NCBI RefSeq assembly: GCF_000743525.1
Contig: NZ_JQGK01000009.1
Coordinates: 1 to 64,000 of the forward strand
From: Sulfurospirillum sp. SCADC
GTDB taxonomy: Bacteria > Campylobacterota > Campylobacteria > Campylobacterales > Sulfurospirillaceae
Direction: 5' to 3'
Length of the DNA stretch: 64,000 nt
The notes beneath the pieces are model-generated. The model saw only the letters and a list, made by a program, of their open reading frames with translations. It was not told the DNA's origin and made no database searches. Positions 3,116 to 32,864 of the stretch are shown piece after piece. Made by a program: the position numbers and the translations under genes. Each line of letters opens with the position of its first letter. The stretch's first letter is position 1.

Positions 3116-3751
3116 TTAGAGTGTATGCGCTTTACGATACGCGATAATTTCATCAATGCTCACGATGGGAAAACCATGTTGTTCTGCAAAACGATAGATG
3201 GTATCCCCCACTGCCATAGTACCATCAGGATTGGTCAGCTCACACAAAACGGCATAGGGTGAGAGATGAGAAAGACGCATCAGATCGATGGAAGCTTCGG
3301 TATGTCCATCACGCTCTAACACACCACCTTTCTTTGCACGCAATGGAAAAACATGCCCTGGAGAGACGATCTTCGTTTTGCCATCGGGATGAATGGCAGC
3401 ATGAATGGTTGTGAGGCGATCTTTTGCACTCACACCTGTTGTAACGCCCTCTTTGGCTTCGATGGAGATGGTAAAACCGGTTTGGAATTTGGATTGATTA
3501 TGCGTTACCATCATGGGAAGTTCAAGGGCATCGACCTTTTCAGGGGGTAAACACAAACAGACGATGCCACTGCATTCGCGAATCAGCAGTGCAGTTTGCT
3601 CTGTGGTAAGCGAGTCTGCGTGGAAGATGATGTCTGCCTCGTTTTCGCGGTTGAAATTGTCCATAACGATTACGCCGCTATGGTTTTGAAGCGAAGCGAT
3701 GGCTTGCTTAACATGGTGGTGAAGGGAAGTTCCCTTACAGATTTGATTCAT
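3116..3751 (-). CDS. ribB: 3,4-dihydroxy-2-butanone-4-phosphate synthase
   Basis: A 211-residue RibB, converting ribulose 5-phosphate to formate and the four-carbon riboflavin precursor. The active-site loop DNFNRENEADIIF and the conserved segments GHVFPLRAKKGGVLERDGHTEA are intact. It is a single-domain protein without the RibA GTP cyclohydrolase half. ATG 3751 is preceded by TAGGAGT. It is monocistronic and sits about 96 nt downstream of an FMN riboswitch, so expression should fall when FMN is plentiful. The ribD gene at 40.6 kb is not in this transcription unit, so riboflavin genes are scattered in this genome. Confidence 0.95.
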   Translation of the reverse strand: MNQICKGTSLHHHVKQAIASLQNHSGVIVMDNFNRENEADIIFHADSLTTEQTALLIRECSGIVCLCLPPEKVDALELPMMVTHNQSKFQTGFTISIEAKEGVTTGVSAKDRLTTIHAAIHPDGKTKIVSPGHVFPLRAKKGGVLERDGHTEASIDLMRLSHLSPYAVLCELTNPDGTMAVGDTIYRFAEQHGFPIVSIDEIIAYRKAHTL

Positions 3752-3847
3752 GGGTTACTCCTAAGAATGAGTAAACTTACCAGAATCAGGGCATCTTTAA
3801 ATATAGACACACGATTTTGTCATCAACAATGGCAATAATGCACTACA

Positions 3848-4152
3848 TTCTCTCTCATCCGGACTTTAACCGTTGGTTTTGGAATCGCACCAAATCTGCT
3901 TGACCTTTTAACATTAGACTTCTTACATAACCCTTGAAAAAAGAGTATCGTCCATAGCACATCACTTTTTAAAACTAAAAACATCGCCATAGCTTTAGCT
4001 ATGACTCAATTTTGAGTTTTAAAAATTAACACACTCTGAACAAACTCTTCATCTTTTCAAGGGTTATGAAAGAAGTCTATTACATGTAAAAGCGCTCGCG
4101 GACTCTCTTTATTACAAGATTACCGCCAGTAGGGAGTTACACCCTGCCCTGA
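3848..4152 (-). ncRNA. FMN riboswitch (RFN element) controlling ribB, with an outsized variable arm
   Basis: Read on the minus strand, the conserved RFN blocks appear in order: TCAGGGCAGGGTGTAACTCC (4152-4133), CTACTGGCGGTAATC, AGTCCGCGAGCGC, then GCAGATTTGGTGCGATTCC, CAACGGTTAAAGTCCGGATG and AGAGAATGTAG. These match the P1-P6 core of the ribB leader of gammaproteobacteria closely, including a downstream CCTGATTCTGGTAA segment. The core is interrupted at the one position where the family tolerates length variation, between GAGCGC and GGTCAAGCAGAT, by a 186-nt arm (3906-4091). The whole element is about 305 nt instead of the usual 130-150. A TATACT -10 candidate lies just upstream, near 4172-4177. 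Confidence 0.93.
3906..4091. repeat. 186-bp near-perfect inverted repeat forming the riboswitch arm
   Basis: The left arm 3915-3940 and right arm 4054-4079 are complementary at 25 of 26 positions (TAGACTTCTT, then CATAACCCTTGAAAA). Complementarity continues outward to CTTTTA/TAAAAG, and inward with interruptions through TTTTTAAAACT, to a terminal hairpin CATAGC-TTTA-GCTATG. One TTACATGTAA palindrome (4080-4089) sits at the base. No reading frame is evident in it. It looks like a palindromic element settled in a tolerated position of the RNA. Confidence 0.8.
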
Positions 4153-4200
4153 GAAATAAGTTTCGATCAAAGTATACTGCAATAGACTTAAAAAATAAAA

Positions 4201-10029: not shown

Positions 10030-11279
10030 AGCGCTTTTTTCTCTAATGCTTTCGCTTTTAAAATGGTATGCGGTGTTTGAAGCTCGAAAAGTTCACCCTC
10101 TTCTATCTTTTCAAGGGCAATTTTTTTACCCCCTTTAACAATTCGAGCATAACACTCTTTTTGTTCACGTGTCGGCTCTTTAGAGTGAAGTGCTATCGTG
10201 TAAGAGGAGAGCAGTTGCTCTTTTGTAGCAATATTTTGTCTGGTTTGAAAGCTAATTTGCTCTTGGAGTAGCGTGACGTGGCGTGATTTTTCACGGTAGA
10301 GCAGTGCTATTTTATCGTTGTATTGACTCTGTAAAATACCAATTTCATTTTTCCATAACGAGAGTTTCTCATCGATGGAGCGTTTGGCAAAAAGGCGTGA
10401 AAGATGTGTTAAACTCTCTTCTTTAGAGCGTAAGATTCGTCCGAAGACAAGCGTGTAGTGCTCCATCAAACCATCGATGCGTTGCAACATTTCAACGCTA
10501 TCTGGTAGTATCATCTCTATCGCAGCCGAGGGCGTTGGCGCTCTCAAATCGGCGACAAAATCGCTGATGACATAGTCTATCTCATGCCCTACGGCGGAGA
10601 CAATTGGTGTTTTACATGTAAAGATCGCGTCTGCGACAATCTCTTCATTAAACGCCCACAAATCTTCCACACTTCCGCCACCGCGCCCAACGATAATGAC
10701 ATCAGCCCCAAGAGCGTCGGCACGTGCAACGTTCGCCGCGATGGAGAACTTTGCACCTTCACCTTGAACCAATGTATCGAGCAGTGTAATTTTGACCAGT
10801 GGCCAGCGTTTGGTTGCCACACGAAGCATATCTTGCAGTGCGGCACCTGTACCTGAAGTGACGAGCGCAATGTGATTGATAAAACGAGGTAAGGGCTTTT
10901 TGCGCTCCGCTTCAAAGTAACCTTTGGCTCCGAGTTTCACTTTGAGCTGTTCATACGCTTTTGCCAAAGCGCCGCTACCGGAAGGTTCCATCATCGTACA
11001 GTTGATCTGATAGGTTCCACGCGGTGAGAAAACGGAAATGGAGCCATAAACGACTACCGCCATGCCCTCTTCGACTTGAAATTTTAAGGCTTTGGTATTG
11101 CCTTTAAACATCACGCACGAGATGGAAGAGTCAGCATCTTTGAGGGTAAAGTAGAGATGCCCAGAGCTGTGGTATGTGGGTCTTGAGACCTCACCTTCCA
11201 CACTTACATGTAAAAAGGTGGTCTCAAGCAGAGACTTGATTTGGTTGTTTAAACTTGAGACACTAAGGGTTTGGCTCAT
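10026..11279 (-). CDS. xseA: Exodeoxyribonuclease VII large subunit
   Basis: A 417-residue XseA, which with XseB degrades single-stranded DNA from both ends. The N-terminal OB fold (about 1-100, with HVSVEGEVSRPTYHSSGHLYF) binds DNA; the catalytic domain has the motifs GTGAALQDMLR, DVIIVGRGGGSVEDLWAFNEE and SAVGHEIDYVISDFVADLRAPTPSAA; a coiled coil follows (about 290-380). The start overlaps the ubiE stop as TAATG, so the two are translationally coupled. No xseB follows it in this window. Confidence 0.96.
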   Translation of the reverse strand: MSQTLSVSSLNNQIKSLLETTFLHVSVEGEVSRPTYHSSGHLYFTLKDADSSISCVMFKGNTKALKFQVEEGMAVVVYGSISVFSPRGTYQINCTMMEPSGSGALAKAYEQLKVKLGAKGYFEAERKKPLPRFINHIALVTSGTGAALQDMLRVATKRWPLVKITLLDTLVQGEGAKFSIAANVARADALGADVIIVGRGGGSVEDLWAFNEEIVADAIFTCKTPIVSAVGHEIDYVISDFVADLRAPTPSAAIEMILPDSVEMLQRIDGLMEHYTLVFGRILRSKEESLTHLSRLFAKRSIDEKLSLWKNEIGILQSQYNDKIALLYREKSRHVTLLQEQISFQTRQNIATKEQLLSSYTIALHSKEPTREQKECYARIVKGGKKIALEKIEEGELFELQTPHTILKAKALEKKAL

Positions 11280-31187: not shown

Positions 31188-32864
31188 TTATACCAAACTT
31201 CTCTTTTGATGCAGTGTTTCGATCTCTTTATCACTCCAAACACCATAAGAATCGCGGTACGGCTCTTTTACATGTAACGGTTTTGAAGCCGTAGAATGTG
31301 TGGCGACAATGCCCTTGATGTCGCTGGTTTCATCATTGGCAACGTGCACGTCAAAGCCTGCGAGATTGAGTCCGATTTGGCTTACATGTAAAGCGGTTGA
31401 GGCGACTAAAACGCCATCAGGTTTGAGTAGTTTTTTCAGAGCTTGGAAGAATTCCAAGGTGACGAGCGAAGCGTTATTGCTCTCGATAAAGGGGTCTAAA
31501 AAGATCACATCAAATTTCTCGCTCAAAAGCGTGACACCGTAGCGTGCTTCGACATTTTGGAAGTCAATCCTCGCGAAATCATCTTCGTAGGTTTTACATG
31601 TAAAAAGTGCGTTCAATATCTTTACATGTAAAGCATTGGGAACGATAGCAGAAGCTCTCTGTAAAAGCATGCGGTCTTGGTCGATGGCGTTTACATGTAA
31701 ACGATTTTGGGCTAAGGTTTGGGCTAATTCTATGGCTTTAAACGTGGTGTAGCCCATCCCAAAACCGATCTCTAAAAGGTTCACATCGCCTTTTTCAAGG
31801 CGTGCTTTGAGGTCTGATTTTTCAAGAAAAAGTGTTTCGGCTTGGGTGTAAGCGCCCGCTTTGGGATGGTAATAATCATGGTACGTTTCATTCCATAAAG
31901 TCGAACTTCCATCTTTTAGATCGATTTTTTGTGGTATTTCATCACTTTCTTCACACTTGGACTCGACCAAATCACCTTGTTTGATACCCCGATAACGCAT
32001 CGTTTGGGCGATGTATTCGCCAAATTGTCCTTTTGCCATGTGCCATGTGGGGGCGATAAGTTCATAAGCTGGTGTGTCGGTGGCAAGACGTAAAATGGGA
32101 ATGGTAGAAGGAATATAACGCAACAGCTCGATGAGCGCTTCGGCGTATGCGTACTCGTTTAAAAGCGCAAAAGGTGTTTGTGCGTATTCGCGTGCCAAAT
32201 CGGTCTTTTCGATGATATGCAAATTGTGAAATTTAATGCCATCAATGCCCGCGTCCACCAAGCCTTTCAAACTCTGTTTCCACATCTCTAAATTCTCATT
32301 TGGCAAGCCGATAATGAGATGCGCATAGACCTTCAAACCTTTACCATGTAAACGCTTAATCGCATCCAGCGAACAGGCAGCATCGTGTCCTCGGTTCATG
32401 CGCGCTAAGCTTGTATCGTGCAAAGTTTGCACGCCAAGCTCAACTACGACGTCTAGTTTTTGGTTTAATTCACTCAAATATTCCAACGTCGATTCGCTGA
32501 GACAATCGGGTCTGGTGCCTACATGTAACGCCCGAAACGGGTAGAGCGACAGCAGGTTTTCATACGCCTCTTTTTGCCTAACCAACGAGGCAAAGGTTCC
32601 CGTGTAGGCTTGAATGTACAGCGCAAACGAAGAGGCTTTGTACCGCCTTTTCGCAAACGAAAGCGCTTTTTCAATCTGCTCTTCCACGCTTTTTGCGTCG
32701 GCAATTTGCGCCGCACGCGCACCGTGTTCAGGACAAAAAGAGCAGCCGCCACTGCCATCTTTTTCACGGTTGGGGCAGCCAAATTCAAGATTGACCGGAA
32801 TGCTAAAGAGCGCTTCGCCATACTGAGCGAGCATAAAATTTTTATGGCTAAGGTAGGGGAGCAT
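31188..32864 (-). CDS. Radical SAM (YhcC/TIGR01212) protein fused to an MnmC-like methyltransferase
   Basis: A 558-residue two-domain protein. Residues 1-310 match the YhcC/TIGR01212 radical SAM family: PYLSHKNF, then cluster cysteines C30, C41 and C44 with the unusual wide first spacing of that family, and VELGVQTLHD. Residues about 335-530 resemble the MnmC/DUF752 methyltransferase domain: DGSSTLWNETYHDYYHPKAG, LLEIGFGMGYTTF (SAM motif I) and VIFLDPFIESNNASLVT. MnmC methylates tRNA wobble uridine; a tRNA or rRNA substrate is a guess here. ATG 32864 overlaps the previous stop as TAATG, so I reject the longer frame. Five TTACATGTAA palindromes fall in the methyltransferase half. Confidence 0.85.
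   Translation of the reverse strand: MLPYLSHKNFMLAQYGEALFSIPVNLEFGCPNREKDGSGGCSFCPEHGARAAQIADAKSVEEQIEKALSFAKRRYKASSFALYIQAYTGTFASLVRQKEAYENLLSLYPFRALHVGTRPDCLSESTLEYLSELNQKLDVVVELGVQTLHDTSLARMNRGHDAACSLDAIKRLHGKGLKVYAHLIIGLPNENLEMWKQSLKGLVDAGIDGIKFHNLHIIEKTDLAREYAQTPFALLNEYAYAEALIELLRYIPSTIPILRLATDTPAYELIAPTWHMAKGQFGEYIAQTMRYRGIKQGDLVESKCEESDEIPQKIDLKDGSSTLWNETYHDYYHPKAGAYTQAETLFLEKSDLKARLEKGDVNLLEIGFGMGYTTFKAIELAQTLAQNRLHVNAIDQDRMLLQRASAIVPNALHVKILNALFTCKTYEDDFARIDFQNVEARYGVTLLSEKFDVIFLDPFIESNNASLVTLEFFQALKKLLKPDGVLVASTALHVSQIGLNLAGFDVHVANDETSDIKGIVATHSTASKPLHVKEPYRDSYGVWSDKEIETLHQKRSLV
31268..31700. repeat. Densest cluster of the dispersed TTACATGTAA palindrome
   Basis: Copies start at 31268, 31382, 31594, 31622 and 31691. 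Window-wide starts of the exact 10-mer, by hand: 4080, 5401, 5784, 6036, 10612, 11205, 12866, 15246, 21286, 22868, 25064, 25639, 29770, 29876, 30599, these five, 35474, 36542, 39608, 40574, 41093, 51888, 53364, 54232, 57425, 61602 and 61624. Inside genes it reads as Leu-His-Val or Thr-Cys-Lys depending on frame. Near matches with one change occur at about 12007, 14811, 15074, 21977, 32519, 40288, 41301, 46625 and 58368. Confidence 0.9.

Follow-up and report, generated by a model that had tools for sequence, protein, structure and literature searches.

A palindromic MITE within the ribB FMN riboswitch of Sulfurospirillum sp. SCADC, in the loop of the variable arm

The ribB leader of Sulfurospirillum sp. 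SCADC contains a long inverted repeat inside an FMN riboswitch, which raises the questions of where this repeat came from and whether the riboswitch can bear it. We analyzed the locus within the window (the whole 64,000-nucleotide stretch of one contig) and compared it with other Sulfurospirillum genomes. The explanation as a whole, to which we give a probability of roughly 0.93, is that the arm is a MITE of the IS5 family kind inserted in the variable-arm loop, with the riboswitch core unaltered.

An FMN riboswitch split by a long hairpin

The FMN riboswitch (4160..3843, minus strand) precedes a gene that we take to be ribB from sequence-family knowledge and the riboswitch context, and it is split in two by a 75-bp hairpin. 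No Rfam family matched anywhere in the window at the gathering cut-off, which is 66.2 bits for the FMN family (RF00050). At a relaxed threshold, RF00050 gave two partial matches, each covering one aptamer half: 4160-4025 (43.1 bits, 1.7e-8) and 3945-3843 (42.1 bits, 3.2e-8). These scores are below the cut-off because the insert splits the aptamer, and the uninterrupted orthologous aptamers score 107-121 bits. The insertion thus makes standard annotation miss this riboswitch, and the case shows how one interrupted in this way is lost. When the insert is left out, all the conserved core blocks and helices can be aligned with those of 17 orthologues, in agreement with the original prediction, and the folding energetics described below point the same way. 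The leader segment GCCCUGA (3792-3786), a candidate for alternative pairing, is kept in nearly all the relatives aligned.

The 186-nt arm (3905 to 4090) folds into a single rod with 75 base pairs (-77.8 kcal/mol, z -12.8), and none of 200 shuffled sequences folded as well. The hairpin is therefore real and not a product of chance. The arm also matched microRNA hairpins weakly in Rfam, which we set aside as chance matches of an AT-rich long hairpin. The inverted-repeat arm and its folding as one long rod had both been foreseen from the sequence, and both stand; several details need revision. The outer repeat (3915-3940 / 4054-4079) is complementary at 25 of 26 positions (96%), as had been noted for a 26-bp main stem, but the palindrome spans the whole element and not that stem only. 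Likewise, the 186-nt arm does contain a long inverted repeat, but its foreign part is only 163 bp (3916-4078) plus one 3-bp duplication. Nor has the variable arm been replaced. Its native stem (CUUUUAC...GUUAAAAG) is retained and the MITE sits in the apical loop, so that the extra DNA is an extension of the arm. In most relatives the variable arm is CUUUUAC-loop-GUAAAAG or near it. The coordinates are collected in Table 1.

Table 1. Features of the ribB leader and the inserted element (positions in the window)
Feature	Position	Strand	Evidence
FMN aptamer (RFN element) of ribB, MITE-interrupted	3843..4160	-	RF00050 half matches; alignment with 17 uninterrupted orthologues
Aptamer 5' half, including 5' side of variable-arm stem	4079..4160	-	RF00050 matches, folding, alignment
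Aptamer 3' half, including 3' side of variable-arm stem	3843..3915	-	RF00050 matches, folding, alignment
163-bp palindromic MITE, AGACTTCTTACATAACCC ... GGGTTATGAAAGAAGTCT	3916..4078	.	13 full own-genome copies; copies in other Sulfurospirillum; empty sites of sister copies
Left terminal inverted repeat and adjoining arm	3916..3940	+	First 18 bp equal the IS end at 17/18 positions
Right terminal inverted repeat and adjoining arm	4054..4078	-	Last 18 bp identical to the IS end
Target-site duplication ATT, left copy	3913..3915	+	AWT consensus over 57 copies
Target-site duplication ATT, right copy	4079..4081	+	AWT consensus over 57 copies
Leader GCCCUGA, complementary to aptamer 5'-strand UCAGGGC (4146-4152); candidate alternative pairing of the expression platform	3786..3792	-	Sequence; conservation
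ribB (presumed), 3,4-dihydroxy-2-butanone 4-phosphate synthase, 211 aa, intact	3116..3751	-	

A dispersed family with target-site duplications and empty sites

We found 13 full-length copies of the element in the SCADC genome including the riboswitch one, to which the others are 87-95% identical. A DNA search with the arm showed that at least 13 of 24 Sulfurospirillum genomes carry the element at full length, and a collection scan found copies in S. cavolei UCH003, S. diekertiae JPD-1 and others. The 57 full copies that we aligned were drawn from the loci fetched, and those common to several species are not independent. They are short (162-166 bp) and non-coding, with ends AGACTTCTTTCATAACCC ... 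GGGTTATGAAAGAAGTCT and an inverted repeat over their entire length. Just outside the ends stands a 3-bp direct repeat, A-W-T. Identical 3-bp flanks occur in 26 of the 57 copies, nearly all of them A-N-T; the expectation is 12.0, and none of 5000 re-pairings gave more than 21.

Some other sequences resemble parts of the element. Derivatives of about 80-95 bp with MITE ends and internal deletions are found in the SCADC genome at C3:62850, C10:44790 and C15:71098 (L093, L094 and L095). A second palindromic repeat, with ends AGACTTCTTGCATAACCTAAC, occurs at L069 780-940 (G006) and at about 1020-1075 of L096 (contig C11 of the SCADC genome). The L069 repeat has the central 28 bp of the MITE, TGAGTCATAGCTAAAGCTATGGCGATG, with a different stem between, as if modules had been exchanged. 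A solo MITE end adjoins TTACATGTAAT upstream of an hsp20-like gene in two genomes (G013 and G022).

We then searched the genus for empty sites with the joined 130-bp flanks of 12 SCADC copies. One copy has an empty site in G007 (260/260 bases, 98%), and full-length uninterrupted sites for other copies were found in G005 and G019. Alignment of filled and empty sites gave 167-bp gaps, that is, the 164-bp element plus the 3-bp duplication: the filled site reads ...AATATAATA ATT (element) ATT CAAATG... and the empty one ...AATATAATA ATT CAAATG.... At the riboswitch, all 17 related FMN aptamers aligned are without the MITE. The position of the empty site is clear there, yet the sequences do not line up base for base, because the short loop varies by a few bases between species. 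Some insertions elsewhere have the same flanks in several species, and thus the family is not all recent.

The suggestion that the arm is a small palindromic mobile element is thereby supported by four independent lines: the copies, the target-site duplications, the empty sites, and a transposase-bearing element with the same ends and duplications (below). The opposite pattern, with the same arm in all relatives and no copies elsewhere, is contradicted by the data. A lineage-specific elaboration of the variable arm, old and grown by local duplication, might be imagined since FMN variable arms generally vary in length (143-164 nt for the relatives' aptamers), but its chances are practically nil: the 162-166-bp sequence recurs at numerous further loci, together with target duplications and empty sites.

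A probable mobiliser of the IS5 family

Among the DDE_Tnp_1 genes, we found in one congener (G019) a 907-bp IS in four copies that are 99-100% identical. Its ends are exactly AGACTTCTTTCATAACCC; the MITE consensus thus has 18-bp ends identical to those of a transposase-bearing element, and the duplications agree (AAT/AAT and ATT/ATT in the two IS copies inspected). The IS has two overlapping frames (44-505 and 424-885) that meet at an A7 run. When they are joined by a -1 shift, the product matches the IS5 family transposase model NCBIfam NF033581 with 167.9 bits (cut-off 140), and the frame pieces match PF13613, PF13359 and PF01609 above cut-off, which places this partner element, with its IS5-type DDE transposase, in the IS5 family. 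It has only some 18-24 bp of the ends in common with the MITE. A search of the SCADC genome turned up neither this IS nor its transposase, in an assembly of 38 contigs from which a multi-copy IS may be missing. From these ends and duplications, the G019 IS or a relative is the probable mobiliser of the MITE.

The ISL2-group elements ISCaa2 and ISCaa3 likewise have two overlapping frames with -1 frameshifting, a length of 914-916 bp and 20-23-bp inverted repeats (PMC3196728). The G019 IS resembles them in size (near 907-916 bp), in its ends of about 20 bp and in its frameshifted two-frame transposase, and its placement with the ISL2 group is one of likeness in these three features only. The riboswitch element differs in keeping the ends only. 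Related IS were seen in G016, G023, G007, G014 and G010 (for example, L137 1060-1975); their end has four mismatches (AGACATCTTGCAAAACTC), and they show 65-67% DNA identity to the G019 element, with up to about eight copies per genome.

The TA flanks of most copies had prompted a reading as an IS630/Tc1-mariner element with TA duplication. It was rejected, as the empty sites show a 3-bp duplication, and no DDE_3 (IS630-type) transposase was found above cut-off in the genus.

Placement and evolution of the copies

None of the 57 copies lies within a reading frame of at least 80 aa in a simple ORF call. Divergent genes flank 21 copies and convergent genes only one, indicating that the copies are mostly in 5' regions. 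They are often 14-60 nt upstream of a start codon (for example, L074, L075, L077, L078 and L079), and may carry or alter promoters or leaders. As the family sits directly upstream of many Sulfurospirillum genes, it could shape their leaders. We scanned 60 copy-bearing loci with Rfam and found no riboswitch in them and only one tRNA nearby; the FMN arm is therefore the sole structured-RNA target seen.

The variable-arm loop may have been hit more than once. In the FMN riboswitch of another species (G009), one of the 17 aligned, the loop of the variable arm (L071 1500-1530) reads CTTTTACATGTAAT followed by AGACTTCTTACATGTAAAAG, that is, AAT and then nine bases that match the beginning of the MITE end. 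It holds TAGACTTC, identical to the MITE end. This loop is a probable deletion scar of an independent MITE insertion in the same loop, graded no higher because the match extends only 8-9 nt beyond host sequence. It is plausible, as had been proposed, that this loop is the only tolerated place in the aptamer.

Across the 57 copies, 17 of 48 rod pairs have changed on both sides, with 85 covariation cells against 19.8 in shuffles. Sliding the rod partners by one column lowers the cells to 11-23. Therefore, the two arms of the rod evolve together, which could reflect selection for the hairpin or template-switch correction within the palindrome. In one copy (L128 619-780, G007), the inner stem-loop is inverted relative to the outer arms. 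This fits hairpin- or cruciform-mediated flipping, and also template-switch correction.

We also noted highly repeated short palindromes in the window. The decamer TTACATGTAA occurs 31 times against 0.08 expected (for example, at 4080-4089, 10611-10622 and 31593-31701), with 24 of the 31 sites in ORFs, and TTTACATGTAAA occurs 15 times against 0.03 expected. This 12-mer is present 657 times in the SCADC genome and 14-792 times in every Sulfurospirillum genome searched; a second genus of the family has 27 and other families of the order 0-1, and the reversed control gave 0-3. As for a possible targeting of these palindromes by the MITE, the density of TTACATGTAA is 1.75 per kb within 30 bp of MITE copies versus 0.3-0.9 per kb beyond 60 bp, but this comes from just six sites, and on reversed flanks the pattern used matched AATGTACATT as well. 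The iterated palindrome resembles the highly iterated palindrome HIP1 of cyanobacteria. Among the literature matches listed for the decamer, none concerns Sulfurospirillum.

Effect on the riboswitch

We compared ensemble energies with the consensus aptamer pairs forced. Forcing the native aptamer costs 11.0 kcal/mol with the MITE and 11.1 without it, and 11.5-12.4 kcal/mol in seven relatives. The aptamer pair probabilities with and without the MITE agree within 0.01, and the balance of the UCAGGGC:GCCCUGA pairing is 1.5 kcal/mol in both cases. By computation, therefore, the insertion is modular, and the earlier expectation of an undisturbed FMN pocket holds at this computational level.

In our reading, a non-autonomous, fully palindromic MITE of the IS5 family kind entered the apical loop of the variable arm at an AWT target and duplicated 3 bp (ATT) there. 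It would have been moved in trans by an IS5-family transposase that is now undetected in the SCADC genome. In the RNA, the element would fold on itself as a rod and join the native arm helically, so that both the FMN pocket and the downstream alternative pairing would be left undisturbed. Judged from folding and conservation, the riboswitch probably still works.

Alternatively, FMN control might have been impaired or lost through the insertion, so that ribB would be expressed constitutively or at a reduced level. On general grounds, with an insert of 163 nt the polymerase reaches the 3' half of the aptamer later, and the rod could attract RNases or pause the polymerase. However, the core residues match the conserved ones of the relatives, the folding energetics are unchanged, and ribB is intact, with a product 94% identical to RibB of the nearest relative. 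We regard a loss of control as unlikely.

A selected functional extension seems quite improbable. In this reading the arm would be a site for RNase III or a protein, through which the ribB leader is processed or stabilized, so that the switch would act as an RNA in two pieces. The 75-bp rod would suit such a role, RNase III cleaves similar MITEs in Neisseria (PMC10969869), and the covariation across copies suggests that the hairpin is kept as a hairpin. Yet the element is absent from the aptamers of all other species aligned, and the same sequence is found at unrelated intergenic sites. Moreover, the covariation belongs to the whole repeat family and may come from template-switch correction of the hairpin rather than from selection at this site. 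A more elaborate scheme is something of a long shot: the variable-arm loop would be a repeated landing site for this MITE, to judge from the intact insertion here and the apparent 8-nt end scar in G009, and RNase III would cut the rod to give a split, two-strand FMN riboswitch controlling ribB.

Comparison with known systems

The inserted MITE is a known kind of element in an unusual landing site. The riboswitch shares all the conserved blocks and the alternative leader pairing with other members of RF00050, but differs in that its variable arm bears a 163-nt transposable hairpin and its score is under the cut-off. It amounts to a natural experiment on how much foreign RNA an aptamer can bear, since the hairpin is larger than the aptamer itself and the core is apparently intact. 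In the part of the literature that our search covered, we saw no description of a MITE within a riboswitch aptamer. The closest precedent for a repeat in a riboswitch leader is a BOX element that lies between two T-box riboswitches in the trp operon leader of pneumococcus (PMC3049150). There, too, a repeat element and riboswitches form a composite leader, but the repeat is between two riboswitches, whereas here it is within a single aptamer, in the loop of a peripheral helix.

In function, the nearest counterparts are the Correia elements (CREE/NEMIS) of Neisseria, since RNase III cleaves the hairpins that they form in transcripts. Like the element described here, they are small palindromic MITEs in intergenic 5' regions that are co-transcribed with neighbouring genes and predicted to form long hairpins. 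By analogy, the rod in the ribB leader RNA would likely be an RNase III substrate. The Correia elements differ from the Sulfurospirillum family in their ends; the latter has a 3-bp AWT duplication and an IS5-family partner, and the RNase III cleavage known in Neisseria is a prediction here.
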